Origin: a virus
Direction: 5' to 3' (one strand)
Virus record (IMG/VR): IMGVR_UViG_3300020463_000148
Span: 1 to 22,786 of that record
DNA: 22,786 nt
Below, one piece after another: positions 9,588 through 22,786 of the stretch. The translations under genes were made by a program, and so were the position numbers. Below the pieces are notes generated by a model. The model saw only the letters and a program-made list of their open reading frames with translations, was not told the DNA's origin and did no database searches. Positions within the stretch are counted from its first letter, which is position 1, and each line of letters begins with the position of its first letter.

Positions 9588-12500
9588 TAGTAACCTCCAC
9601 TATAACCTGAACCTGAGTTACCTGAACTGCTTGAAGAACTTGAACTTGAAGAACTTGAACTTGATGAACTTGAACTCGATGAACTTGAACTTGTTGTTGA
9701 AACTGTATTTGCACTCGATGTAATCCCTGCATTTTCTGTTGTTGCTGTAGTTACTACAGAACCTGATGTTTTTAATCTCGATGCCGTAATGCTGTCAATA
9801 ATTTCAACATTATCTACTGTTGCACCACTAATAAAAATTTCATCATTTTCAGTTGAAATTTCGTATAAACTTCCGAATGCTTTTTCTGTTTGGTTTGGAA
9901 CCAATACAAGTGTTGTAATATCCGGTGCCAAAGAGTTAATAATATATGTAGACAGTTCTGTAAAACTAAACTTATCTCCAAAGTCCCAAAACTCTAAACT
10001 AAAAAATTCATTAATTGCTTGAATAATTCTTAACTTAATATCATTATCATTACTAATCACTTCTGGATTCTTAACAACTTTAAATGTTGCTTGTAAATCT
10101 GGCTCTGATTTATCGCCAAATAAAATTTTGTAATTAACTGGATGATAAATTACTTCATCACTAATTGATTTAATCTTATTAATTTCTGCACCAAAGTTCT
10201 GGAACAATTCGTCTGAACTTGGTGGTAAAGGTTTAGCAGGTATTGTATTTGCCAAGTATTGTCTAAATGACTTGTCATACGTTTTAGTTAACAAGTATGT
10301 GTCAACAATATTTGAACTACTTGGATCTAATCTATTATTCTCATCTGCACTGTGTACATATTGGAATACAAGTTTATCTCTGCCTTGATATGCTTTATAA
10401 CCTGTTTGTAATGTTAAGTTTGCATTTGCTTTGCTGTATACTTTAAATACATCTGCATCTGTAAAATAAAATATTGTACCATCATCATACTGTGATAATG
10501 CACCTGTTGATGTTTGTGATAAAAATGTTTTAATATTTTCTACATCAGCGTCTACATAATCATAATTTGTAGACTGGTTGTTTGAAATTCTTTCTTTTAA
10601 GAAAATATATTTTGTTAAAGGATTCGTATCCTGTGCAACAAACACATCAAACAAGTCTGGATTATCAACAACGCCATCGCCGTCACTGTCGAAGAAACCT
10701 ACTTCTACTTTTTTACTATTAATATATCCATCTTCATCTCTAAACTCTTTAGTAACTTGCCAAGGATAATCAACAGTTTCGGGTGAACTTGAATCCGGTT
10801 TCTTGTTGATTGACATAATGTTAATTTTATCTCTAACAACTTGTCCTGTTCTGCTATCATAAATTTTGTCTGTTTCATCAAAGTAAAACTTAACTTCTTG
10901 GTTACTTTCAAAAATGTATCTAACACCTCTGTAAGTAATAGTATATTTTTCACCGTCTGTTTCAAATAACATTAACCAACTTGAATCTAAGTTCTGTCCT
11001 GATACATCACCTGTCTTACCCATGTTAAATGGATTACCAATACTTAAATTGTTATTAAGAATTACACGCCATTCTCTATCTACAGTACTGTAACGTAAAC
11101 CAAATGTTTTGTAAGCAAAAATTTGATCAATCATTTGCGTTGTAACATCTGTTGTTAGGTTTGTTGCAAATTTAGGTTTGATCTCATCTAATATTGCGCC
11201 TGTTGGAACAACATCATTAAAGATAATAGGACCTTGTCCGTCCTCATAATTTTCAGTGCCTTTGTCATTTACTCTAATAACTTTAGTCCAAAGATATTTT
11301 ATTGCTTGTGGATGATCTGTATCACCGTCCATTAATGCATGACTGTTGTCTTTCATGAAATGTTTACCTGGAGGTGCAACAAATTTAACAATAGCGCCTG
11401 GCTCTAAGTATTTTAGTGTGCTACCAGTAAATGTACCTACTGTTAATTTAATATCTAATGTGTCTGAAATATAACCGCTGGAGTTATTAGTTTGTTTTGC
11501 AACCTGTGTCCAGTCTGCTTGTAAGTCTGCTGTTGATATTTTAGGAAACTGATTTAAGAAAAAGTTTTTAACTACACTGTCTGAAAGTAATGGTGTAACT
11601 ATGTTTTGAATCTTACCTTCTACATCTGTTTTTGTAGCAAAACTAAAACTAACTTTTTTATCAAATACATCTTTATAGATAACGCCATCGTTACCAAAGA
11701 TGTTTGTGCTTGAATATTTTCCTGTTGAATCAATTAAGTCAAAATATCTCGAAATACCTGAACTTGTTCTATTAATACTTTTTACTTTAACTACTTCTTG
11801 GCTAACTGATCTTGGTGCAACATTATAGTCCTCACCAGTAATCATTCTATTTTGTGTATAATATGTACTTGGAGCATTTTCTTTAATACTCTTATTAGTT
11901 TCAGGACCACTTGCATTATCAACTGTATATTTTAATGAAGAAACAAATGTAAATGTTTCTGCTGTTCCGGCTCTACTTGTATATGGTACACTAATTGTTA
12001 CGTTTGTTAAATCTTCAGGATTGATTGTAAACTTACTGCCAAGTCCTTTTCTAAAGTAACATCTAAAGTTTCCTTTAGGTAACGCACCAAATGTTCCGTC
12101 TGCAAATAGTAAACTAATTCTGTCATCAATACGTGATTGTACAGCATACAAGTTTCTGTTTGATTTGCTAACACTATTGTAGATAACATTATTACCTTCA
12201 ACTGCATCAACCTTAGTCCATAACTGTTGTTCGTTTCCGTTGCTGTCTAACTTGTAAAGCCAAACATCTGAATTATTAATGTTTGTTGTGTCAATAGCAA
12301 CTGCTTGATTAGTTGTAGGATTGTCAATGTTAAAATTACCTGTGTCCATTACACCTTGTCTAAAGTGTACAAAGTAACCTGAGTTTGAACTGCCTGCACC
12401 TTTACCATCTTCTCTATATAAAAATGCTAAACTGTTTCCTGGTAACGGATCTTCTTCAAAAATTTTGTCAGAGTCAATAGTTGAACTTGTTATTTCGAAT

Positions 12501-13132
12501 ACAATATTTTTTTCTCCTACGTTTTTATTAAAACTGTAGATAGGTAAGTTTGAATTTGATGCATTGAAACGATATTGCTCAGTTGTAATACCTGCAATAG
12601 TTTCTTTCTTTACTGGCTTACCTACAATGCTGGCTTCTGGTAATGCCGCATTTAGAATTTTTCTAAACTGTTCTGCCCAATCAGGATTTGAAGGGTCATT
12701 CCATAAAATAGTTTGTCCTGATAAGTTAACACCATTAGTGTCATTAATTTGTTCTGTAGTTTGTACACTTTCAAATTTTAATAATCCGTTTGCTGATTGA
12801 TTACGCTTTGGATTATAAGAAAGTAAACGTGCTAAACGTAATACGCTTTCTCTACGTTCTGCTAATTCGAGGAAGTTTTCACGTGCATTTAAGTCAATAC
12901 GGAATGCTATGTTTTGTCCAAGATATGCAATAAGATCAATTAGTGCAAGATACTCTGAACTTTCAATGTAATCGTTAAAGTCTTCAGGATAGTTTTCACG
13001 CAGATATGCGATCATAGTTCTACGTAAACTATCAAAATCATACGATTTGAAGTCCGCAGTTTTAAATGTTTGATATACTCGCTTCCAATCTTCTGCAAGT
13101 AATAATCTATTTTGTCTATCCGTTGTTGACAT
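9587..13132 (-). CDS. 6: Baseplate wedge subunit gp6 (baseplate J-like), enlarged, with poly-serine C-terminus
   Basis: This 1181-residue protein is read as gp6, which dimerises to form the iris-like ring joining baseplate wedges in T4-like phages. The N-terminus (residues 1-130, with DWKRVYQTFKTADFKSYDF, ESSEYLALIDLIAYLGQNIAF and RRESVLRLARLLSYNPKRN) is the typical gp6 opening. The C-terminal part around residues 985-1110 (ELFQNFGAEINKIKSISDEV, VNYKILFGDKSEPDLQATF) resembles the baseplate J core. T4 gp6 has 660 residues, so about 500 extra residues lie in the middle. Residues 815-826 form an EF-hand-like loop. The protein ends with 23 serines and a Gly/Ser/Tyr tail. The start has an AGAGGA site six bases upstream and its own late-promoter motif. 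It follows gp25, as expected for the wedge gene cluster, and overlaps the giant gene by one base. Confidence 0.93.
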   Translation of the reverse strand: MSTTDRQNRLLLAEDWKRVYQTFKTADFKSYDFDSLRRTMIAYLRENYPEDFNDYIESSEYLALIDLIAYLGQNIAFRIDLNARENFLELAERRESVLRLARLLSYNPKRNQSANGLLKFESVQTTEQINDTNGVNLSGQTILWNDPSNPDWAEQFRKILNAALPEASIVGKPVKKETIAGITTEQYRFNASNSNLPIYSFNKNVGEKNIVFEITSSTIDSDKIFEEDPLPGNSLAFLYREDGKGAGSSNSGYFVHFRQGVMDTGNFNIDNPTTNQAVAIDTTNINNSDVWLYKLDSNGNEQQLWTKVDAVEGNNVIYNSVSKSNRNLYAVQSRIDDRISLLFADGTFGALPKGNFRCYFRKGLGSKFTINPEDLTNVTISVPYTSRAGTAETFTFVSSLKYTVDNASGPETNKSIKENAPSTYYTQNRMITGEDYNVAPRSVSQEVVKVKSINRTSSGISRYFDLIDSTGKYSSTNIFGNDGVIYKDVFDKKVSFSFATKTDVEGKIQNIVTPLLSDSVVKNFFLNQFPKISTADLQADWTQVAKQTNNSSGYISDTLDIKLTVGTFTGSTLKYLEPGAIVKFVAPPGKHFMKDNSHALMDGDTDHPQAIKYLWTKVIRVNDKGTENYEDGQGPIIFNDVVPTGAILDEIKPKFATNLTTDVTTQMIDQIFAYKTFGLRYSTVDREWRVILNNNLSIGNPFNMGKTGDVSGQNLDSSWLMLFETDGEKYTITYRGVRYIFESNQEVKFYFDETDKIYDSRTGQVVRDKINIMSINKKPDSSSPETVDYPWQVTKEFRDEDGYINSKKVEVGFFDSDGDGVVDNPDLFDVFVAQDTNPLTKYIFLKERISNNQSTNYDYVDADVENIKTFLSQTSTGALSQYDDGTIFYFTDADVFKVYSKANANLTLQTGYKAYQGRDKLVFQYVHSADENNRLDPSSSNIVDTYLLTKTYDKSFRQYLANTIPAKPLPPSSDELFQNFGAEINKIKSISDEVIYHPVNYKILFGDKSEPDLQATFKVVKNPEVISNDNDIKLRIIQAINEFFSLEFWDFGDKFSFTELSTYIINSLAPDITTLVLVPNQTEKAFGSLYEISTENDEIFISGATVDNVEIIDSITASRLKTSGSVVTTATTENAGITSSANTVSTTSSSSSSSSSSSSSSSSSSSSSSSGNSGSGYSGGY
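9593..9598 (-). promoter_or_regulatory. Ribosome binding site of the giant structural gene
   Basis: GGAGGT lies five bases before the ATG at 9587, inside the last Gly-Gly-Tyr codons of gp6. It is the strongest Shine-Dalgarno sequence in the left block. With the one-base stop/start overlap it suggests efficient coupled translation of the giant gene, and it fixes this ATG as the start. Confidence 0.85.
9623..9691 (-). repeat. 15-bp in-frame tandem repeat encoding 23 consecutive serines in gp6
   Basis: Near the 3' end of gp6 the coding strand repeats a five-codon unit, AGT TCA AGT TCW TCR, four times. An AGC AGT TCA remnant follows. All 23 codons are serine, from two codon families (AGY and TCN). 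The unit is a multiple of three, so copy-number change would alter tract length without shifting the frame. Confidence 0.95.
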
Positions 13133-13151: not shown

Positions 13152-13159
13152 TATTTATT
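13152..13159 (-). promoter_or_regulatory. Late promoter motif for gp6
   Basis: AATAAATA matches seven of eight bases of the T4 late promoter consensus TATAAATA. It lies in the 56-bp gap between gp25 and gp6, one of the few real intergenic gaps in the left block. A start about six bases downstream would give a leader of roughly 14 bases carrying the AGAGGA ribosome site. The same AATAAATAC string occurs before the first gene of the cluster. Confidence 0.65.
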
Positions 13160-13188
13160 TAAACGAGATATCTGAGCACTTAATTCTG

Positions 13189-13635
13189 TTACACGCCAAA
13201 GCCTGAGTTCTGATCGAATTCAAACTTTAGTTGTTCAGATATGTTGTATGGCAAGTACGTAAGTTCGCACTCAATTTGAATACCGCTTTCATACTGGTCA
13301 ACAACTATTGCAGATGCAGTTACTCTCGGATCACCGTTAATAATCTCTGTTACATTGTTTATAATTGCTGTTTTTAATGAATCAGTCATAGGCTCAAACA
13401 AAACGTCCCAAATAATTGTTCCAAACTCAGGATTTTCAAGTTTTTCGCCTTGTCTAATATGAAAGTGATTCAGTATATCTTGTTTAATCAAGCCAATGTC
13501 ATACAATGCATAAGAAGTATTGTCAGGATTGACTGTGCTAAGACCTTTATATGCTCTACCTTTTACAGGGGGTCTTTCTTTGACTCTTGATGCTACTTTA
13601 ACATTTCTTACTGTATTTTTTTCTAAACTGCTCAT
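13189..13635 (-). CDS. 25: Baseplate wedge subunit gp25
   Basis: This 148-residue protein belongs to the gp25/GPW family, whose T4 member has 132 residues. gp25 is part of the baseplate wedge, is related to the T6SS sheath initiator TssE, and helps start sheath polymerisation. Family features in order are a short basic N-terminus, YALYDIGLIKQDILNHFHIR, the strongly typical segment NPEFGTIIWDVLFEP (near residues 67-81), and an ECELTYLP strand near the C-terminus. It lies between gp5 and gp6. The ATG at 13635 is eight bases beyond the gp5 stop codon. A perfect TATAAATA late motif sits immediately upstream, and the only Shine-Dalgarno-like sequence (AAAGGTG) is 13 bases away. Confidence 0.93.
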   Translation of the reverse strand: MSSLEKNTVRNVKVASRVKERPPVKGRAYKGLSTVNPDNTSYALYDIGLIKQDILNHFHIRQGEKLENPEFGTIIWDVLFEPMTDSLKTAIINNVTEIINGDPRVTASAIVVDQYESGIQIECELTYLPYNISEQLKFEFDQNSGFGV

Positions 13636-13640
13636 ATTAA

Positions 13641-13648
13641 TATTTATA
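13641..13648 (-). promoter_or_regulatory. Perfect T4-type late promoter motif before gp25
   Basis: TATAAATA matches the T4 late consensus at all eight positions. It spans the stop codon of gp5 (TAA at 13646-13644) and ends five bases before the gp25 ATG. In T4 the motif occupies about -13 to -6, so transcription would start at or next to the A of the ATG. Chance occurrence in AT-rich DNA is possible, but its placement between two genes supports function. Confidence 0.7.
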
Positions 13649-15176
13649 CACCTTTCTTGAACGTATCTGGTGCTGTATCATAATCAAAAAGATCCGTTGG
13701 CATTGGTTGTTCATTGTTTCTATTTGTTCTAATAGGTTTGTACTCAAACGGGTCAACGTTTTCGTGATGTGGCCACGGCTCATGCTGTGGTAAGCGTCGA
13801 TGCAACGAAGTTGTAGCGGTAGCGGTAGCGCCGGGCACGACGTGTGTGTATAACGGAGTTACTGCGGTAGCGGTGGCCGCCTGCGGTCCATTCATATGGA
13901 TCTGTGGAGCAGTTTCTGTATGGTTGCCTCCACTGAGTATATCAGTAGTTCCGCCTGCTGTAAACTTGTTTGCTCCTATAGTGTTTACATCATAATCTAA
14001 CAGCGTTGTAACTTGATTGTTCATTGCAACGTATGTTGTCATGTTTGCATTAGTTTCAACTTGTATATCGTCTTTTGCTAACACGTTAAAGTTTCGTCCT
14101 GCATTTAGGTTAATGTCTCTATCCGCTGTCAGATTGAAATCGTTTTCAGTGTGCATACTAATACTGTCTTTTGAATACACATCAATTTTACCGTTAGCAG
14201 TCATTTCAATCCAACTATTGCCGCTACCGTGGTCTATGCGTATTAAATCTTCTGTGTTATGAAAAAGTATTTGGTGTCCTGTGCGTGTTCTAATACGCAT
14301 AAGTTCATTGTGTGGTAGTGTTACATCTCCACCCTTTTCACCCTTTTCAATATTGACATATTCTTTCTTTGTAGATTCCGCCGGACCTTTACGTAAAATT
14401 TTGTCATCTCCGTCGTCCATTACAAATGCACTGCCGCCAAGTCTATTGAAAGGTATCTGTGCCGCTGTACCTCCTGGTCCATATCCTGCTTTAGGACTGC
14501 CAGGACGCTTGTCATACGGTCCAGGTGTGTTTATACCAAACACCATGCTTGGCAGTTCACGCCTTGCACTGCTTGTTGTTAATGCTCTTGTACCGTCTGA
14601 GGCAAGTCCTGCCTTGTGCAGTAGATCCATCCATTCTTCATTGATAGGCTTTTTAAATTTTGTAGGGTCGTTACCTTTGTTGTCTGCGAGATTCTTTTTG
14701 TTAATTTCTCCAACTACAACTTTACCCGTGTTCTTTTTGGCTTCCTTGGCTCCTTCGCCCTTAGGACTGCCTGTAAAGAAAGTCGATGCAACCTTGTCTG
14801 GTACGTTTAGGTTAACATAGTTGTCAGGTATACAACCAATCCAGTAACCCATATTGGCCGCACCTTCCGCAAACACTATAAGTACTCTACTACCAACGTC
14901 CGGTGGTGTCATCCACATACCATAAGCGGATTGTGTGTATGCAAAGTCTGTGTTGGCACTGATGCCATTGACTGGAGTTTGTCCCCAGAATGGACTTGCA
15001 TAACTTACCTTGAACGTTTGTCCTTCACTGTCGTCATTGTTACCTGAAGTTCCTTTGAGAAGTTGTACTTCCAATGCACCCATATAGTTTGGATCAAGAT
15101 GGCCAACCACACGTCCAACGTATGGGCCCGAGTCCATTAATGCTTCTTGTCCTACTGTCCTTGATTCTTGTGCCAT
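13644..15176 (-). CDS. 5: Baseplate hub spike protein gp5-like, lacking a lysozyme domain
   Basis: This 510-residue protein resembles the gp5/VgrG spike that caps the tail tube and pierces the outer membrane. Residues about 15-130 look like the gp5 OB-fold (GRVVGHLDPNYMGALEVQ, then MWMTPPDVGSRVLIVFAEG and MGYWIGCIPD). Residues about 300-400 form a beta-helix of VgrG type with short repeated strands (DSISMHTENDFNLTADRD, INLNAGRNFNVLAKDD). T4 gp5 (575 residues) has a lysozyme domain between these parts. Here the middle is a Gly/Pro/Lys-rich linker with no visible lysozyme catalytic block. After the helix comes an Ala/Thr linker and a His-rich segment (RRLPQHEPWPHHE) near residues 462-475. The ATG directly abuts the upstream stop codon, with AGGA as ribosome site. 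Confidence 0.85.
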   Translation of the reverse strand: MAQESRTVGQEALMDSGPYVGRVVGHLDPNYMGALEVQLLKGTSGNNDDSEGQTFKVSYASPFWGQTPVNGISANTDFAYTQSAYGMWMTPPDVGSRVLIVFAEGAANMGYWIGCIPDNYVNLNVPDKVASTFFTGSPKGEGAKEAKKNTGKVVVGEINKKNLADNKGNDPTKFKKPINEEWMDLLHKAGLASDGTRALTTSSARRELPSMVFGINTPGPYDKRPGSPKAGYGPGGTAAQIPFNRLGGSAFVMDDGDDKILRKGPAESTKKEYVNIEKGEKGGDVTLPHNELMRIRTRTGHQILFHNTEDLIRIDHGSGNSWIEMTANGKIDVYSKDSISMHTENDFNLTADRDINLNAGRNFNVLAKDDIQVETNANMTTYVAMNNQVTTLLDYDVNTIGANKFTAGGTTDILSGGNHTETAPQIHMNGPQAATATAVTPLYTHVVPGATATATTSLHRRLPQHEPWPHHENVDPFEYKPIRTNRNNEQPMPTDLFDYDTAPDTFKKGV

Positions 15177-17648
15177 TTAAAATCCTATGTTTGCACCTTG
15201 TTTACGAGCCTGCATTCTTTCTTGAATGTCTCTTTGATTTTCTGCTTCTGCCATCTCTGCTTCGGTTGGTCTGTTGTTGTCGCCTGCTTGTTCTGCTTCA
15301 GTTTTTGTATCAGATTCTTTGTTTACGTCTGCTTTTTCAGTAACAATTTCTTGGTTGCCTTTTTCACCTGCTTGTGCTGTTGGCTTAGGTGATTGTTGCG
15401 GACGTCTTACAAGTTCAAGTACTTGTTTAAATTCACCCGAACTAAATTCGTTCTTAACACTAATTACCATATATAATCCGCTAAAGAAATCAACTGGCAC
15501 AGTATCATTAGGGAATCCCATGATACCATTGTCCCTATAATCTATTGGTGTTCTGAATAATACTTCAACATCTACTTCGCCGTATTGGTAATCTATCGTA
15601 CCGTCTGCATCAATGTTAATATATTGTGTGTTCTCTGAGTTGTAATTACCTACACCACTGTCAGCAATATAATAAGGATCTCCCATGATAGTCATGTCAA
15701 GTGTTAGTAAGTCAACGTCACTGTTTACGATTGCTTCATTAAATCTACGTGCAATCTCAACCTGCATGTCATCAAGACTGACCGCACCCGCCGCTTTGGC
15801 ATTATTCTTTTGTACTATTCCTGCTTTGTTATTAACCTGTGAATCGTTGTTTACTGCTGTTGCTTTAATCTTTTGCTCTGGATCCTCTCCTTCTTTAGAA
15901 CCATCTGCCAAGTTGTTCTTTGGCAGTGTACCTGGACTCATGCTTTTAAAGAATGTATTATCAAGATTAATTTCAAGATCCAATATATCTTCGTTTGCAC
16001 CACTGTAAATGTAGTTGTAACGTTTTACACATTGTTTCCTAAGTTCTCTAAGACCATATGGAGTTTCGTCTGGTGCAATAAATTTACTTTCGTGTACCAT
16101 GTATGGTAAAATTCTAAACACATAAATTCTTGGGGGTCTACCTAATTTCTTTTCTGTTTTTCTATCTGTAATATTAAAAACTTGTGTATCAATTTTAAAC
16201 CAAGGACGCAAACCTTTTTCGGCTGGCGCACTAATAATACTTCTACCGTAATCACTTAGGATTACAAGTTCTTCAATAATATCTTGTATTCTTGTTCCTT
16301 GAATAAATTTAATTGCACCAAGTCCTGGATCAATCTGTAATTGTCCGTTTGCTCTGTGCCAAACTTTTTTATCCTTGTCATATGTAAATGATGCATCGCC
16401 AAACGGCTGATTGTTTGAACCAAGTTTTTCAAGATTAAACATTTTTGAAAGTCCTATGTTATTACTTGCCTCTGGACCTGTTTGCTTTGCTCTAATTTCT
16501 TCGCCAAGTGCTGTTTGTGTAATTAAACTTTTAACTTTCTCAACCCATGCTTCAAATTCCGCTTTATCTACGTTGACATCTCCCATCGCGGCAACCTGTG
16601 CATATAGTTCGTCAAGATTTGCTTCTTGTGCCGCAGTTTTTCCTTTTGAACTTGTTGTTACACCTATTGCTTCTGAGTCATTGCCTGCATCGGTAGCACT
16701 TTGACCACCTTCGCCGCTACTGTTTAATTTTCCTTTACTTGCACGTTCTTTTGGAAATACGACAAAATATTGATCTGCTGTATAAACTTGTTTGTCTTGT
16801 GCTTTTTTACCTTCGTGTTTGTTAAGTTCGTTGGCTAAACTTTTTATGTTACTTTGTAACATTTCTTCTAATGTTCTACCCATTAGTGTAACATCAATTG
16901 GAATTTTTTGTGTTTCGTCAATTAATGCACCTTCGTTGTATGCAACACCTTCAACAACATAAGAACTTCCTCCTGCTGTTACACTTAAATCACTACCAAC
17001 AAGTTTGAATGGCATATTTTTAGATGCTTCAGGAACTGTGTAAACTTTTCCGGCGTCATCGTATCCTATAAAATCAATAGTAAGCAAGAACGGAGATTCT
17101 AAATAGTTTTCGTGTCCTGCTTGGTATGATGCCAGTTGCAATGTTTGTAAAAATAATCCCATGCTGTAAGGTTCTGTAATTTCAAGTCTAAAACCTACAG
17201 CATTAGTTGAACCTTTTTTACGTGTAGGTGCAATAATTGTTTCAATCTCTAATGCATTAATAAAGTATTCTGCTTTTTTATTTGCAGTTTCATATGCTGT
17301 TAAAACTTTTTTATCACCTAATCCGCCGCCACTTTGTAAAATAGCATACTGAGGTTTTTTAATTTTGTACGATTCATCAGGATTATTAAGTTCGTCATTG
17401 GTTAGTGCATACAAACCAATTCTGTAATTAAAACTTGAATAGTCTCTTAGTGAATTGTGTAATGGTAATTGTAAAGTTCTACCATCTGCTGTTCTTGCAG
17501 TGTATTTGTCTGCTGTGGCATAATTCTGTCTGTTATCCATTGCATCATTGTCGGGATTTGATGTCGCAGTATTTTGATTTTCTTTATCTTTATTAGTGTC
17601 TATTGATGAAGCGTTAGTATCAATGTTTGAATCTTGTATTAATTCCAT
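15177..17648 (-). CDS. Baseplate hub structural protein (probable gp27 equivalent)
   Basis: This 823-residue virion protein lies between a gp53-like gene and the gp5-like spike gene, where a hub protein holding the spike would be expected. Motifs such as FNYRIGLYALTNDELNNP and FLLTIDFIGYDDAGK recall the large hub or structural proteins of T4-like cyanophages. Ordered regions (about 60-290, 360-590 and 630-770) are separated by low-complexity linkers: an Asn/Asp/Thr-rich N-terminus (1-45), a Ser/Gly stretch (about 305-340), a Lys/Asn/Ala stretch (about 580-625), and a Glu/Lys/Gln-rich tail (about 770-823). T4 gp27 has only 391 residues. The match to gp27 is inferred from position and could be wrong. 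The ATG lies three bases after the upstream stop codon, with a GGGGA site nearby. Confidence 0.65.
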   Translation of the reverse strand: MELIQDSNIDTNASSIDTNKDKENQNTATSNPDNDAMDNRQNYATADKYTARTADGRTLQLPLHNSLRDYSSFNYRIGLYALTNDELNNPDESYKIKKPQYAILQSGGGLGDKKVLTAYETANKKAEYFINALEIETIIAPTRKKGSTNAVGFRLEITEPYSMGLFLQTLQLASYQAGHENYLESPFLLTIDFIGYDDAGKVYTVPEASKNMPFKLVGSDLSVTAGGSSYVVEGVAYNEGALIDETQKIPIDVTLMGRTLEEMLQSNIKSLANELNKHEGKKAQDKQVYTADQYFVVFPKERASKGKLNSSGEGGQSATDAGNDSEAIGVTTSSKGKTAAQEANLDELYAQVAAMGDVNVDKAEFEAWVEKVKSLITQTALGEEIRAKQTGPEASNNIGLSKMFNLEKLGSNNQPFGDASFTYDKDKKVWHRANGQLQIDPGLGAIKFIQGTRIQDIIEELVILSDYGRSIISAPAEKGLRPWFKIDTQVFNITDRKTEKKLGRPPRIYVFRILPYMVHESKFIAPDETPYGLRELRKQCVKRYNYIYSGANEDILDLEINLDNTFFKSMSPGTLPKNNLADGSKEGEDPEQKIKATAVNNDSQVNNKAGIVQKNNAKAAGAVSLDDMQVEIARRFNEAIVNSDVDLLTLDMTIMGDPYYIADSGVGNYNSENTQYINIDADGTIDYQYGEVDVEVLFRTPIDYRDNGIMGFPNDTVPVDFFSGLYMVISVKNEFSSGEFKQVLELVRRPQQSPKPTAQAGEKGNQEIVTEKADVNKESDTKTEAEQAGDNNRPTEAEMAEAENQRDIQERMQARKQGANIGF

Positions 17649-17651
17649 AGA

Positions 17652-17951
17652 TTAAATCCCCAACAACGAACGTAATCTACTACCCTTTGGAACACGTATC
17701 TCAGTACCAACTCTAAAATCAAATACTGGATCTTTTAATATGTCCATGTTACGTTGTGCGTACACCCACCATAACTTTGGATTACCATACATGTCGTATG
17801 CTAATAGGTCCGGACGTTGATGATACTGTGATTGTATTTCATAAACTTGATCATCTGGATCTGCTGGCACAGGTCTGATATTTAAAATATTTAAATATCC
17901 ACCATTTCTGTTGATTCCTGTTTTACCCCAAGGTGAACTTGTAACTGCCAT
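17652..17951 (-). CDS. 53: Baseplate wedge protein gp53-like (LysM-like motif)
   Basis: This 99-residue protein has the gp53/LysM-type signature YHQRPDLLAYDMYGNPKLWW, followed by VYAQRNMDILKDPVFDFRVGTEIRVP near residues 42-92. In T4-like phages gp53 joins neighbouring wedges around the hub. The T4 protein has 196 residues, so this form is short and is almost only the LysM-like part. A peptidoglycan-binding LysM role is possible but less likely in a baseplate operon. The ATG shares one base with the upstream stop codon (TAATG), and AAAGGA lies eight bases upstream. Confidence 0.75.
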   Translation of the reverse strand: MAVTSSPWGKTGINRNGGYLNILNIRPVPADPDDQVYEIQSQYHQRPDLLAYDMYGNPKLWWVYAQRNMDILKDPVFDFRVGTEIRVPKGSRLRSLLGI

Positions 17952-18790
17952 TAGATAAATCCTTTATTGTTTGAGCCAAGGTAGCCACCTTTAGCAAATT
18001 TGTCTAAACTAAATTTCTCAACAAGTGCTCTTGAGTAAATTGGTTGTATAGTTACTGTCATCTGACTCTCTGTTGGAACATATGATTTGTCTCCATCTGT
18101 TGAAGTAAACTCATCTCCACCATCATTAAACACTTCTCCTAATTTTGTCATGTCAACTGCAATGTAGTCAACATCAGTAGGCATATCAAGTGTAAAGTTT
18201 GTTACGATAACAGGAACTTGTTTGAACACATAATCTCCGTAACCATTTAATTTTACTACTGGTGGTGGAGCACCTTGATTAGAACCTTCCCCGTAAAACA
18301 TTTTTGTAATTGATCTCAAATAATGTAATGCACCAATCCAATACAAACCTTCTTGTGAATTTTGACAATAAAATTGACCCGTTAATGTCATTGCGTCCAC
18401 TTGTGAGTTCTGATACGCAAAGAACGGATAATTACTATGTACAGGGGTTATAGCACTATAAGATGCGGCATGACTCATAATAATTGTTGGCGTATATGGA
18501 AACGCAAGACCGCCTGTGTCAACTAACGGTTTAAGCAGTGAACTTTTTTGAAAAGAAGGAATGTTAGGAATACTTAATTTTACACGCCAATCTTTACCAT
18601 CTGGGTCTGATGCCCATTTAGCACTACTAACCGATATTTGGTCATCGGCTTCGCCATCAACTGGAATTGTACGCGAACGTATTCCTTTCATAAACCCTTC
18701 AGCAGAGTCCTTAAAACCTTGTACACTATCGCGAGCCAAGTTCACGGCTTTATCGACTATGTTTCCATCTTTCTTATTATCAATGCTCAT
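17951..18790 (-). CDS. Baseplate tail-tube cap protein, gp48-like (gp48/gp54 type)
   Basis: This 279-residue protein is the first gene of the leftward cluster. Its core (residues about 95-200: FPYTPTIIMSHAASY, HSNYPFFAYQNSQVD, GQFYCQNSQEGLYWIGALHY, VVKLNGYGDYVFKQVPVIVT) recalls the gp48 tail-tube cap of marine T4-like phages. That protein joins the baseplate hub to the tail tube, with a fold related to the tube protein. T4 gp48 has 364 residues and gp54 has 320. I cannot separate the two by eye, and only one such gene is in the window. The first 35 residues are charged and probably helical or disordered. The ATG at 18790 has an AGGA 12 bases upstream, which is a long spacing. Confidence 0.65.
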   Translation of the reverse strand: MSIDNKKDGNIVDKAVNLARDSVQGFKDSAEGFMKGIRSRTIPVDGEADDQISVSSAKWASDPDGKDWRVKLSIPNIPSFQKSSLLKPLVDTGGLAFPYTPTIIMSHAASYSAITPVHSNYPFFAYQNSQVDAMTLTGQFYCQNSQEGLYWIGALHYLRSITKMFYGEGSNQGAPPPVVKLNGYGDYVFKQVPVIVTNFTLDMPTDVDYIAVDMTKLGEVFNDGGDEFTSTDGDKSYVPTESQMTVTIQPIYSRALVEKFSLDKFAKGGYLGSNNKGFI

Positions 18791-18816
18791 AAAATTTTGG
18801 TGTCCTATATATAAAG

Positions 18817-18824
18817 TATTTATT
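18817..18824 (-). promoter_or_regulatory. Late promoter motif at the head of the baseplate operon
   Basis: AATAAATA (seven of eight bases of the T4 late consensus), followed by C as before gp6, lies 26 bases upstream of the first ATG of the leftward cluster. The expected leader is about 20 bases and includes AGGA. The two rightmost bases of the motif are also the first two bases of the -35 box of the divergent gp55 promoter. Confidence 0.65.
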
Positions 18825-18851
18825 GACTTTTTTATCAGAGTAGTTTATAAT
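18823..18851 (+). promoter_or_regulatory. Sigma70-like early promoter of gp55
   Basis: TTGACT at 18823-18828 and TATAAT at 18846-18851 are separated by exactly 17 bases, close to the ideal host housekeeping promoter. Transcription would start near 18858, a few bases before the gp55 Shine-Dalgarno sequence. The -35 and its following T-run match the promoter found before gp47. Confidence 0.85.
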
Positions 18852-18863
18852 AAGAGTACAAAT

Positions 18864-18868
18864 AGGAG
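18864..18868 (+). promoter_or_regulatory. Ribosome binding site deciding the TTG start of gp55
   Basis: AGGAG is six bases upstream of TTG at 18875. The next in-frame ATG is more than 90 codons downstream, beyond residues typical of the gp55 N-terminus, so the TTG is the likely start. Confidence 0.85.
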
Positions 18869-18874
18869 AATTCA

Positions 18875-19726
18875 TTGAAAAAAGTAAATTATTTAAACAA
18901 TAAGGACTTGTTAAAGGAAATACATAAGTCAAAAAGCACGTATTGTAGTTATACAGACGATACTTACGCTGACTTTGATATTATCTTGCCAAGTATTGAT
19001 AAAATTAACGTAAGAACTATAGCAGAAGCAAAGAGGAACAAAGCAAAGAAATTAGGTACAGCAGATTATGAAGCACGTAAGGCAAACGGTGAAAAAGTAA
19101 AACAAGCCGAGTGTGCTATTGATTATAGAAAAATTACAAAAGAAGAACTGGTCTTCCGTATTATGTCATTTGATCATATTCCAGAAGAAAAGGGTCGTAA
19201 AAAGAATCCAAAGACCGTAGCAGATACAAGAGTTAAATTAAACTTTCCACCATTCCAACATTACAAGTTTGACGAATTAGGAGAATTGCAATGTATAGGT
19301 AAATCACATTGGGAAGGTGGTATGTCTAACGGTAACTTTAGTTTGAAGCATGGCAAGACTACAGAAAAACTTGCTCGTATGTGGATGAAGTTATGTGATA
19401 GATATGCAACACGAGGTAATGTACGTGGTTACACATATAATGATGAGATGCGTGGACAGGCAATTTTACAATTAACACAGATTGGATTACAATTTGATGA
19501 AAGTAAATCACAGAATCCGTTTGCATATTATACTGCGGCAGTAACTAATTCATTTGTTAGAGTTATTAATATCGAAAAACGTAATCAAAATATTAGAGAT
19601 GATATTTTAGAAATGAACGATATGACTCCGTCCTTTACAAGACAGCAACAAGGACAATGGGAGAGACAAGTTGAAGACCAAAGAAAAGCAATGGCAAAGC
19701 AAGAAGCCGAAAAGGCATCCAAGTAA
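18875..19726 (+). CDS. 55: RNA polymerase sigma factor for late transcription, gp55
   Basis: This 283-residue protein is the phage sigma-like factor that directs host RNA polymerase to TATAAATA late promoters. Residues about 166-246 (LARMWMKLCDRYATRG, TYNDEMRGQAILQLTQIGLQF, NPFAYYTAAVTNSFVRVI) are the sigma region 2-like core that contacts the beta-prime coiled coil and the -10 element. T4 gp55 has 185 residues; the extra length is mainly an N-terminal extension that starts NYLNNKDLLKEIHKSK and includes FRIMSFDHIPEE, features I recall from marine T4-like phages. The start is TTG, chosen for its ribosome site. The C-terminus is charged (ending AKQEAEKASK), and I do not see the short hydrophobic/acidic clamp-binding tail known in T4. 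Targets in this window would be the late motifs of the leftward operon. Confidence 0.92.
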   Translation: MKKVNYLNNKDLLKEIHKSKSTYCSYTDDTYADFDIILPSIDKINVRTIAEAKRNKAKKLGTADYEARKANGEKVKQAECAIDYRKITKEELVFRIMSFDHIPEEKGRKKNPKTVADTRVKLNFPPFQHYKFDELGELQCIGKSHWEGGMSNGNFSLKHGKTTEKLARMWMKLCDRYATRGNVRGYTYNDEMRGQAILQLTQIGLQFDESKSQNPFAYYTAAVTNSFVRVINIEKRNQNIRDDILEMNDMTPSFTRQQQGQWERQVEDQRKAMAKQEAEKASK

Positions 19727-19736
19727 CCAATTAAGG

Positions 19737-19765
19737 TTGACTTTTCTTAACAAATGCAGTACAAT
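19737..19765 (+). promoter_or_regulatory. Sigma70-like early promoter of gp47-gp46
   Basis: TTGACT at 19737-19742 and TACAAT at 19760-19765 are 17 bases apart, in the 70-bp gap between gp55 and gp47. The -35 and the next bases (TTGACTTTTCT) almost repeat those before gp55 (TTGACTTTTTT), which suggests a common early promoter class. Confidence 0.8.
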
Positions 19766-19785
19766 ATGAAGAGCATAGTAATTAG

Positions 19786-19790
19786 AAGGA
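19786..19790 (+). promoter_or_regulatory. Ribosome binding site deciding the TTG start of gp47
   Basis: AAGGA is six bases upstream of TTG at 19797, the same spacing as for gp55. The next in-frame ATG is residue 48, which would remove the essential first metal-binding motif, so the TTG start is required. Confidence 0.85.
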
Positions 19791-19796
19791 TATATT

Positions 19797-20801
19797 TTGT
19801 TTAAAAAATGTGCAGTATTCACGGATATCCATTTTGGACTAAAGTCCAATTCAGTGGCTCATAATCAAGATTGTGAAGATTTTGTAGATTGGTATATTGC
19901 CAAGGCAAAAGAAGAAGGTTGTGAAACAGGCATCTTTATGGGTGACTGGCATCACAATAGAAATAGTCTAAACATTGTTACAATGGATTATTCAATCCGT
20001 TGTCTTGAAAAACTTGGTAAAGCATTTAAACAATTCTTTTACTTTCCAGGCAATCATGATCTATACTACAAAGACAAAAGAGATATCCAGAGTGTAGAAT
20101 TTGCAAAACACATCGACGGTGTAACTGTAATTGATGAAATTACAACAATCGAAGATAGCACAATGGTTCCGTGGCTTGTTGGTGAAGAATGGAAAAAGAT
20201 TCCTAAGATTAAAACAAAATATATGTTTGGACACTTTGAACTTCCAAACTTTTATATGAACGCAATGGTACAAATGCCTGATACAGGCGAATTACAATCT
20301 AAACATTTTGTACATCAAGAGTACGTGTTTAGCGGACACTTTCACAAAAGACAAACACAAGGTAATGTAACATATATCGGAAATGCGTTTCCGCACAACT
20401 ATGCAGATGCATGGGACGATAAACGTGGTATGATGATATTAGAACACGGCGGAGAGCCACAGTATCTTGACTGGGAAGATTGTCCTAAGTATAGAACAGT
20501 AAAACTGAGTCAACTAATTGATCAAAAAGATACACTATTAAAAAGTAAGATGTATCTTAGAGTTACACTTGATATTCCAATCAGTTATGAAGAAGCAAGT
20601 TTTATTAAAGAAGAATTTATGAGAAACTACAGTTGTAGAGAACTTACATTAATTCCAAGTCAACAAGATGACGAAATAAACAGCAATATCGATATTACAA
20701 AGTTTGAAAGTGTAGATCAAATTGTTGCAGAAGAAATTAATGCTATCGATTCCGACAACTATAATAAGCAAACGTTATTAAACATTTACAACGAGTTATA
20801 G
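19797..20801 (+). CDS. 47: Recombination endonuclease subunit gp47 (SbcD/Mre11-like)
   Basis: This 334-residue protein is the metallophosphoesterase nuclease subunit of the gp46/gp47 complex. The complex resects DNA ends for recombination-dependent replication and helps degrade host DNA. T4 gp47 has 339 residues. The Mre11 phosphoesterase motifs are complete: D10-I-H12, G49-D50-W-H52, G85-N86-H87-D88, G145-H146-F-E and G180-H181-F-H183. The start is TTG, and an early promoter lies upstream. One base separates its stop codon from the gp46 ATG, so the two subunits are probably translated together. Confidence 0.96.
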   Translation: MFKKCAVFTDIHFGLKSNSVAHNQDCEDFVDWYIAKAKEEGCETGIFMGDWHHNRNSLNIVTMDYSIRCLEKLGKAFKQFFYFPGNHDLYYKDKRDIQSVEFAKHIDGVTVIDEITTIEDSTMVPWLVGEEWKKIPKIKTKYMFGHFELPNFYMNAMVQMPDTGELQSKHFVHQEYVFSGHFHKRQTQGNVTYIGNAFPHNYADAWDDKRGMMILEHGGEPQYLDWEDCPKYRTVKLSQLIDQKDTLLKSKMYLRVTLDIPISYEEASFIKEEFMRNYSCRELTLIPSQQDDEINSNIDITKFESVDQIVAEEINAIDSDNYNKQTLLNIYNEL

Positions 20802-20802
20802 A

Positions 20803-22575
20803 ATGATACTAATTAAAGACCTAACAGTTAAGAACTTTATGAGTGTGGGTAATCAGACTCAAGCAGTTAACTTTAATAATAAACAATTAACCTTAGTCCT
20901 TGGAGAAAACTTGGATCAAGGTGGTGACGACAGTGGGTCACGTAACGGTACAGGTAAGACCACAATCATTAACGCATTGAGTTATGCGTTATATGGTGTG
21001 GCGCTAACAAACATTAGACGCAACAACCTTATTAACAAAACAAACGGAAAAGGTATGTTAGTTACTCTTAACTTTGAAAAGGCAGGAGTAAATTATAGAA
21101 TTGAAAGAGGTCGTGGTCCTAACTTGTTGAAGTTCTTTATTGACGAACAAGAACAAGAAATGGATGATCTTAGTCAAGGAGATAGTCGTAAGACCCAAGG
21201 AGACATTGGCGAACTATTACAAATGACTCACGAAATGTTTAAGCACTTGGTTGCTTTAAACACGTATACAGAACCTTTCTTAAGTCTAAAAGCAAACGAT
21301 CAACGTGCTATTATTGAGCAGTTACTTGGTATTACTATACTTTCTGAAAAAGCAGAAGAACTAAAAGTAAAACAAAAAGAAGTACGTGATGCAATCACAG
21401 AAGAAACTGCACGTATTAATGCTATACAAACAAGTAATGATAAGATAGGCGAAACTATTAACAGTTTGCAAATTAAAAGCAATGCTTGGAAAACACAGAA
21501 TGCAAAAGACTGTGATCGTTTACAAACAGGCATTGATGAATTAGAACATTTAGACATTGACGAAGAACTTGCTAATCATGAATTACTTTCTACATGGGAA
21601 GAACTTGATGCTTCAAGAAGAAACTTGACTAAGGAAAAAGCAACACTTGAAAGTGCATTAACACAAACCGATAGACAGGTTGCAAAAACAAGCAAAGAAC
21701 TTGAACACCTTGATGAAGCAACGTGTCATGCTTGTGGACAAGACTTGCCAGAAGAAAAAATCGACGAAATACAAAAAAAATTAGAAGAAGAATATGCTGA
21801 CACAATGTCCTACTTAATGGAGATTGATACAAAGTTTCAAAAGGTACAGGCTAAACTTTCTGAGTTAGGCGAAGAACAAACAAAACCAAATACGTTTTAT
21901 GAAACTGCAAAAGAAGCATATGAACATAGAAGTAATGTTGATAACTTAAAACAAGCACTAAAAACAAAAGAAACAGAATCAGATCCTTACGTTGATCAAA
22001 TTGAAGAATTAAAGAATAGTGCTATACAAGAAGTTAATTGGGATTCAGTTAATGATCTAACTTCTATGAAAGAACATCAAGATTTCTTATACAAACTATT
22101 GACAAACAAAGATAGTTTTATTCGAAAGAAAATTATCGAACAAAATCTTGCATATCTAAACAATAGACTAACAAATTACTTAGATAGAATTGGATTGCCA
22201 CACAGTGTTGTATTCCAAAACGATTTAACTGTACTAATTACACAACTTGGTCAAGACTTAGACTTTGACAACTTGAGTAGAGGTGAACGTAATAGACTTA
22301 TACTTGGTATGAGTTTTGCTTTCCGTGATGTGTGGGAAAGTTTATATCAAAATATTAACTTGATGTTCATTGATGAGTTGATTGACAGTGGTATGGATAC
22401 TGCTGGTGTTGAACAAAGTCTTGCAATACTTAAGAAAATGGGTAGAGAACGTAAAAAGAATATCTATCTGATATCGCACAAGGACGAATTGCAAGGTCGT
22501 GTACAGAACGTACTTAAGGTTGTAAAAGAAAACGGATTTACAAGTTACGCAAACGATGTTGATATTGTACAATGA
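20803..22575 (+). CDS. 46: Recombination endonuclease subunit gp46 (SbcC/Rad50-like ATPase)
   Basis: This 590-residue protein is the SMC/Rad50-type ATPase partner of gp47; the T4 version has 560 residues. Visible parts are a Walker A loop with N48-G-T-G-K52-T-T, a first coiled-coil arm (about 190-300), a zinc hook C308-H-A-C311 at the arm's tip, and a second arm (about 315-395). The ABC signature L491-S-R-G-E-R follows, then a Walker B (N-L-M-F-I-D524-E525) with its D-loop, and an H-loop (YLISHKDEL) near residue 555. All catalytic parts are intact. The arms are short compared with bacterial SbcC, as is normal for phage versions. Its stop codon overlaps the next start (ATGA). Confidence 0.97.
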   Translation: MILIKDLTVKNFMSVGNQTQAVNFNNKQLTLVLGENLDQGGDDSGSRNGTGKTTIINALSYALYGVALTNIRRNNLINKTNGKGMLVTLNFEKAGVNYRIERGRGPNLLKFFIDEQEQEMDDLSQGDSRKTQGDIGELLQMTHEMFKHLVALNTYTEPFLSLKANDQRAIIEQLLGITILSEKAEELKVKQKEVRDAITEETARINAIQTSNDKIGETINSLQIKSNAWKTQNAKDCDRLQTGIDELEHLDIDEELANHELLSTWEELDASRRNLTKEKATLESALTQTDRQVAKTSKELEHLDEATCHACGQDLPEEKIDEIQKKLEEEYADTMSYLMEIDTKFQKVQAKLSELGEEQTKPNTFYETAKEAYEHRSNVDNLKQALKTKETESDPYVDQIEELKNSAIQEVNWDSVNDLTSMKEHQDFLYKLLTNKDSFIRKKIIEQNLAYLNNRLTNYLDRIGLPHSVVFQNDLTVLITQLGQDLDFDNLSRGERNRLILGMSFAFRDVWESLYQNINLMFIDELIDSGMDTAGVEQSLAILKKMGRERKKNIYLISHKDELQGRVQNVLKVVKENGFTSYANDVDIVQ

Positions 22576-22786
22576 AGATTTGTATAATATATGGACATCA
22601 CAATACTAAAAGCAGTTTCAATGCGGCTATCAGAGATACCTTTATTGAAGAAGCAATAAGATGTGGGCATGAAATAGATTTAGTAAACTTGTTTGATGAA
22701 AAAGAACAATTACCATTTTATAATGCAGATATAAATCCACCACCACAATTAGTATTAGATTATAGAAAAAGACTAGAAAATAGTGA
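22572..22786 (+). CDS. Flavodoxin-fold NAD(P)H:quinone reductase-like protein (partial, C-terminus off the right edge)
   Basis: An open frame of 71 codons starts at the ATG at 22572, which overlaps the gp46 stop (ATGA), and runs to the right edge. The N-terminus MKICIIYGHHNTKSSFNAAI resembles the first strand and phosphate-binding loop of the Flavodoxin_2 family (MdaB, KefF and NQO1-type quinone reductases), whose usual form is a KxLIIYAHPxPxS motif followed by a helix. A second strand, HEIDLVNLF, follows. These enzymes use FMN or FAD to reduce quinones with NAD(P)H in the cytosol. It lies in the early recombination operon but is unrelated to it in function, so it may be a metabolic gene taken from a host. 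The family call rests on only the first part of the protein. Confidence 0.65.
   Translation, partial: MKICIIYGHHNTKSSFNAAIRDTFIEEAIRCGHEIDLVNLFDEKEQLPFYNADINPPPQLVLDYRKRLENS

Follow-up and report, generated by a model that had tools for sequence, protein, structure and literature searches.

An interlocked pair of predicted divergent promoters lies between a baseplate operon and a late sigma factor gene in the viral DNA analyzed here. We put at about 0.55 the probability that this pair, a two-part late promoter and a sigma-70 promoter serving the late sigma gene, works as an early/late switch. A host sigma-70-type promoter would make gp55 rightward, before the onset of late transcription, and polymerase carrying gp55 would then read the leftward late promoter into the tail and baseplate operon. 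This late promoter would have two parts, a TAAATA motif at -10 and an upstream element (UE) centered near -30. In the window and its close relatives the UE lies between the -35 and the -10 of gp55, with TAAATA against the -35. From the onset of late transcription, gp55-polymerase and a UE-reading protein would occupy the DNA of the gp55 promoter, and gp55 would switch off its own source as the tail genes come on.

The window is the whole stretch analyzed, i.e., positions 1-22,786 (22.8 kb) of the virus record IMGVR_UViG_3300020463_000148. Its leftward genes form a virion and baseplate run, and to the right of the junction come the gp55-like sigma gene and then gp47/gp46-like nuclease genes. 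The leftward structural gene and gp55 are 84 bp apart. From 17951-18790, the leftward order is gp53-like, an 823-aa structural protein, gp5-like, gp25-like, gp6-like, and a 3195-aa structural protein. The features of the junction at 18817-18851 and of its surroundings are as follows.

17951-18790, minus strand, virion structural protein gene, first of the leftward operon (phrog_12050 virion structural protein, E 7.6e-47)
18788-18790, minus strand, start codon of this gene (open reading frame 17951-18790)
18803-18806, minus strand, Shine-Dalgarno AGGA of the leftward gene, by direct sequence reading
18817-18824, minus strand, late promoter -10 motif AATAAATA, with core TAAATA at 18817-18822 (core in 79/79 junctions)
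18823-18828, plus strand, -35 box TTGACT of gp55 (TTGAC in 79/79 junctions)
18831-18849, minus strand, UE of the leftward late promoter, by similarity to the gp6 element
18846-18851, plus strand, gp55 promoter -10 hexamer TATAAT, with transcription predicted to begin near 18858
18864-18869, plus strand, Shine-Dalgarno AGGAGA of gp55, by direct sequence reading
18875-19726, plus strand, gp55-like late sigma gene (TTG start, 283 aa)

Positions 18817-18824 read TATTTATT on the plus strand and AATAAATA on the minus strand, and the predicted start of the leftward late promoter is at about 18810-18811. The spacer of the gp55 promoter is 17 bp, and the UE lies inside this spacer and over 4 bases of the -10. 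A preliminary description of this DNA had reported the minus-strand late motif, TTGACT, TATAAT, and the 17-bp spacing, and all four are as it stated; in the window itself the late motif and the -35 do share two bases (18823-18824). The profile matches of the leftward genes are to virion and baseplate proteins, in agreement with the baseplate operon that it proposed. Scoring assumed a sigma-70 consensus for the host. With this consensus, the gp55 site is one of two 11/12 matches within 15000-22786; weak matches are common, as the same interval holds 39 sigma-70-like sites versus 29.7 in shuffles. A second sigma-70-like site, TTGACT-17-TACAAT, stands at 19737-19765 before the gp47-like gene, and such a site occurs in 62/80 loci.

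The rightward gene is a homolog of the T4-type late sigma gp55 by sequence and by fold, which bears out its initial naming as a late sigma factor. Its product matches phrog_12791 (E 2.1e-79) and phrog_234 (E 2.7e-23), phmmer finds T4 gp55 (7d7c_F, E 5.7e-05), and Foldseek ranks T4 gp55 first with an rmsd of 1.9 over 89 columns, but with E 5.3e-03. The size and layout of T4 gp55 are not matched (283 aa versus 185 aa): the T4-gp55-like part is C-terminal and there are about 145 extra N-terminal residues. Residues 1-145 make a well-predicted domain that T4 gp55 lacks (block pLDDT 88-95 after residue 10), and these N-terminal residues have no confident match among solved structures (PDB).

Late motifs in the window are distinguished by where they lie. 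NATAAATA has three copies, all on the minus strand, versus 4.35 expected on that strand, so the count is not elevated. Each copy ends shortly upstream of a minus-strand gene start, 27 nt from that of the first structural gene, 20 nt from that of the gp6-like gene, and 6 nt from that of the gp25-like gene. In simulations of motif placement, two or more fell at 10-45 nt in 1/1000 and three fell at 5-45 nt in 0/1000. The placement of the motifs, rather than their number, is thus far from chance. The features at the two further motifs are the following.

9587-13132, minus strand, gp6-like gene (phrog_10646 baseplate wedge subunit)
13152-13159, minus strand, second late motif AATAAATA, ending 20 nt before the gp6-like start
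13167-13185, minus strand, UE of the gp6 late promoter, AATTAAGTGCTCAGATATC, matching the junction UE
13189-13635, minus strand, gp25-like gene
13641-13648, minus strand, third late motif TATAAATA, 6 nt before the gp25-like start

Because the gp25 motif is only 6 nt from the start, either its message would be nearly leaderless or the motif is not used for that start. TAAATA is equally near the gp25 start in many relatives, so that the late message may have no leader or a different start may be used. The C-terminal end of the gp6-like protein (9587-13132) is a long serine run.

The junction was compared among 80 loci retrieved with gp55 as query, the best 80 of 596 relatives. Two loci, L007 and L053, begin too near the gene to be read and were left out; the 78 readable ones and the window give 79 junctions. 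We call the relatives of the window the window's clade, and a second group of 48 loci the PA5oct-like clade; both names are coined here. The pattern TATTTA(G)?TTGAC-N18-TATAAT is matched by all 79 junctions, with 33 distinct cores, and the two -10 elements are 29-30 bp apart in all of them. In 63/79 an extra G makes the late octamer ACTAAATA, which abuts the -35 without shared bases (G-type); in the other 16/79 two bases are common to both boxes (G-less type). The overlap set out in the preliminary description thus stands in relatives as abutment, found in 79/79 junctions, but not as base sharing, a feature of a subclade (16/79), and the promoters of the PA5oct-like clade are apart. Strict base sharing is consequently rejected as a conserved property. 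In 76/79 junctions, 15-31 nt lie between the late motif and the leftward start codon, no start having been found in the other three; the leftward motif is of the gp55 type, as had been proposed, and has a leader of normal length. Among 53 distinct stretches, which were selected by the core pattern, the mean majority-base frequency is 0.50 and 0.52 in the leaders and 0.73 in the spacer. Of the 79 junctions, 3 have a rightward late motif for gp55, which there merges with the ribosome site. Locus L274 has a possible rightward late motif for gp55.

A pattern scan that was not seeded by gp55 gave at least 120 G-type and at least 119 G-less stretches, 80 of each being inspected. Among the matches listed, gp55 is immediately downstream in 68/80 G-type and 33/80 G-less cases, and three more G-type and one G-less incomplete loci look alike by eye. 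The remaining matches are located elsewhere, which means that the short pattern is no proof by itself. The abutment of the late motif on a sigma-70-like promoter at gp55 is correct and not due to chance.

The divergent pairing extends well beyond the window's clade. Both junction proteins retrieve the same 57 phage-collection records (lists compared by eye), which include PA5oct, RaK2, 121Q, CBB, GAP32, Munch, Atu_ph07, and Phosso. The junction was inspected in 11 of these 57 named records. There, the two genes are always divergent, with one extra gene between them in Phosso and Atu_ph07, and an intergenic leftward TAAATA is always present (its position is ambiguous in SCTP-2). No rightward late motif for gp55 occurs in these 11 phages, nor in 12 parsed PA5oct-like loci. 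The gap from TAAATA to the best -35 is 3-7 nt in RaK2, 121Q, Munch, GAP32, SNUABM_44, and XaC1, and the named RaK2-like phages keep TATTTA with a gp55 promoter that lacks a consensus -35. In the PA5oct-like clade, spacing was read in 43/48 loci (L262, L265, L266, L272, and L273 were excluded). There, the late motif is 42 nt from the first TTGAC in 29/43 and 34-78 nt in the other 14; the 42-nt distance represents 25 of 37 distinct sequences. The sequence between the promoters is conserved (25 distinct of 32 loci) and the leftward leader varies from 15 to 28 nt. This distance is 29 nt in PA5oct itself and 79 nt in Phosso. Since the PA5oct-like promoters are apart, tight overlap is neither universal nor needed for this type of phage: the divergent pairing is general, with tight abutment as a typical trait of the window's clade.

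In Atu_ph07, TATTTAGTTGAC and a UE-like part are kept and there is no TATAAT at 16-18 bp; its gp55, used as query, matches only itself. The gene between the structural gene and gp55 in Phosso (L082, 4243-4785) is annotated as adenylyltransferase, and it would thus be the first gene read from the leftward late promoter. The one at the same place in Atu_ph07 is unnamed.

The late promoters of the junction and of gp6 share the UE, a 19-bp element lying at the same distance from TAAATA in both. If TAAATA is taken as -11 to -6 (T4 numbering), the UE spans about -39 to -21. Over 35 distinct pairs, junction and gp6 UEs are identical at 11.46 of 19 positions at one register, versus 4.4-7.7 at twelve other offsets and 6.4 with shuffles (in the nine G-less pairs, the junction site was shifted by one base for comparison). 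With a matrix derived from gp6 sites, all 25 distinct G-type junction sites score 6.9-18.7, the 99.9% background quantile being 3.9-4.2. The UE scores at both gp6 and the junction in 7/7 contigs, i.e., six of the window's clade and a 335-kb contig. UE similarity within versus between genomes gives p=0.009 over the 35 pairs and p=0.30 inside the G clade.

The UE and the sigma-70 boxes can be told apart. On the opposite strand of junction sites, the sigma-70 match is 11-12 of 12 in 32/32, whereas the best match at gp6 sites is 6-10 (10 in 2/34), with 5-10 in shuffles. With no clear sigma-70 promoter opposite the gp6 sites, the UE does not arise as a by-product of that for gp55. As control, 38 distinct gp47 promoter stretches were taken from 62/80 loci of the same genomes: their boxes are present and their spacers variable by eye. 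The best UE score in gp47 stretches, at any offset, is at most 9.0, and 6.7 is reached in 4/38, whereas 41/41 junction stretches score 6.7 or more. The gp55 spacer is conserved beyond the needs of a sigma-70 promoter, unlike that of gp47. The UE was also considered as part of every sigma-70-type promoter, and this was rejected, as eight other TTGAC-N18-TATAAT sites in a 261-kb contig and the 38 gp47 stretches have no common spacer. The partial pattern TTGACN4TTAN11TATAAT recurs just 3′ of gp55 in 2/16 matches (placed by coordinates).

Elsewhere in the seven contigs the UE is rare. Among 727 TAAATA sites of the six contigs of the window's clade, 20 score above 4 with one-base slack, 12 of these being gp6 or the junction. 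At the exact register, six further sites score above 4 in the seven contigs: four of them precede tail genes (tail tube, baseplate hub, and tape measure in the 261-kb contig; tail tube in the 335-kb contig), and no gene was found for the other two. A slack of one or two bases adds eight sites, six before genes of unknown function and two without gene found; none of them precedes a known tail gene, so they give no support for a link to tails. In PA5oct, the 385-kb G017, and RaK2, there is no TAAATA within 110 nt of gp6. Most late promoters lack the UE, and it was rejected as a general late-promoter element: in four genomes with 38-47 late promoters apiece, no -30 column is conserved. In the leaders of a few other late genes, a UE-like TACGTAGTTAA or AAGTACGCACTTAA directly follows the late motif on its 3′ side:

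218068, plus strand, UE-like leader site in G001 (L180-L193 joined)
251545, minus strand, UE-like leader site in G001
28951, minus strand, UE-like leader site in G001
18329, minus strand, UE-like leader site in G003 (L194-L198 joined)

Because TAAATA abuts the gp55 promoter and the UE lies within it, occupancy of the late promoter should cover that of gp55. As only 29-30 bp separate the two -10 elements, a distance at which the footprints of divergent polymerases overlap, two polymerases should exclude each other. As geometry, this mutual exclusion is well supported. What we infer is the polymerase assigned to each promoter, the steric blocking of one polymerase by the other, the existence of a protein that binds the UE, and the feedback. 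To judge from the motifs, the near absence of a rightward late motif fits shut-off of gp55 and not its self-activation; gp55 being almost without a late promoter of its own, the loop would have no obvious positive arm. The serious rival is compaction, i.e., two real and selected promoters crowding a short gap and excluding each other without regulatory role, which we consider possible if somewhat unlikely. The 84-bp gap and the short leaders speak for it, as does the occurrence of the same promoters at other distances in other clades, and superposing two promoters of fixed length would by itself freeze the spacing seen in the window's clade. Yet compaction accounts poorly for the PA5oct-like promoters, which do not overlap and are still 42 nt apart in 29/43 with conserved sequence between them and a leader of 15-28 nt, nor does it account for the one-sided polarity that leaves gp55 almost without a late promoter.

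The early/late switch could further involve a putative phage protein reading the UE: since the UE doubles as the spacer of the late-sigma promoter, its binding at this one place would act on both sides, activating tail-assembly promoters and silencing gp55. This extension is tentative and we regard it as rather improbable; if true, the junction would be a molecular palimpsest, timing tail assembly and ending sigma supply together. About as doubtful, or slightly more so, is that the UE is instead the operator of a phage repressor holding the gp55 and tail promoters until a set time. Its location inside the gp55 promoter in the window's clade is a classic repressor position, and the UE-like leader sequences just 3′ of late motifs would suit an operator, but the fixed register to TAAATA near -30 at gp6 better suits contact with an activator or polymerase. 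Nor is the palindromic form enriched genome-wide at one mismatch (24 versus 24.6), although exact palindromic copies number 5 versus 1.2 expected. A palindromic operator was rejected, the consensus being dyad-like but the symmetry of sites 5.0 versus 4.8 in shuffles. It is very improbable that the minus-strand TAAATA is unused and that TATTTA is just an A/T-rich stretch flanking a strong sigma-70 promoter on its upstream side. In favor of this, TATTTATTGAC-N18-TATAAT occurs elsewhere in viral contigs (47/80 G-less among the matches listed). However, TATTTA persists in named RaK2-like phages, where gp55 has no consensus -35, is 34-78 nt away in the PA5oct-like clade, stands 15-31 nt before the leftward gene start in 76/79 junctions, and does not precede TTGAC at the gp47 promoters of the same genomes (by eye).

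The early/late switch, our preferred reading, has partial parallels in known systems. The T4 late promoter is described, in excerpts of the cited reports, as an 8-bp TATA box at the -10 site with no sequence conservation at -35 (PMC2988020), its motif TATAAATA lying at -13 to -6, with an Aeh1 variant CTAAATA from -12 (PMC1524935). The ACTAAATA form found here corresponds, by the same excerpt, to this Aeh1 variant (PMC1524935). The likeness to T4 includes the gp55 homolog and a -10 motif with a short leader before virion genes; the difference is that a few tail-gene late promoters here carry a conserved element near -30. Jointly, the late promoters of four genomes share no -35-region element, the junction and gp6 being exceptions. 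If real, the -30 element would break the T4-derived rule of a late promoter as a lone -10 box, and its presence at tail-gene late promoters would point to an unrecognized regulator of tail assembly.

In phi29, early and late promoters are divergent and close. There, as the consulted part of the source puts it, p4 represses the early A2b and A2c promoters and activates late A3 by one event (PMC4974454). The phi29 switch employs a DNA-binding protein with one polymerase, whereas here the late sigma would be the product of the promoter to be blocked, which, if real, gives giant T4-like phages a small feedback loop. In the MotA-dependent middle promoters of T4, a short activator box near -30 replaces the -35 contact. 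The UE resembles it as a short box centered near -30, but the MotA box pairs with a sigma-70 -10 and the UE with a late TAAATA. A MotA-type middle promoter is therefore rejected, the -10 beside the UE being TAAATA and not a sigma-70 TATAAT. Overlapping divergent promoters whose regulator controls its own promoter also form the Pc/Pr switch of pLS20, which in the excerpted report concerns plasmid conjugation and uses a repressor and DNA looping, without alternative sigma (PMC4207663).

For the related jumbo phage CBB, excerpts of the genome paper give an ATAAATA late motif predicted at 35 sites, such motifs having been published in silico for CBB and GAP32, and place the gp55 gene downstream of a sigma-70-like promoter (PMC5259590). 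This promoter class has TGAAACG as -35, and these excerpts describe no divergent overlap or -30 element; they also note a relative without gp33/gp45 homologs (PMC5259590). Genes with early plus late promoters have been described for RB49 and S-PM2. Among the titles and abstracts listed in literature searches, none mentions a divergent overlap at gp55 or a -30 late-promoter element, which is weak evidence, as most subscription journals were outside the scope. The divergent interlock and the -30 element may thus be new, within the known theme of divergent early/late promoter control.

Two of the contigs with this locus, L274 (335-kb) and L275 (153-kb), belong to one Neomarinimicrobiota metagenome-assembled genome and carry a near-identical phage region (6848/6849 bases); they probably represent a jumbo phage binned with its host.
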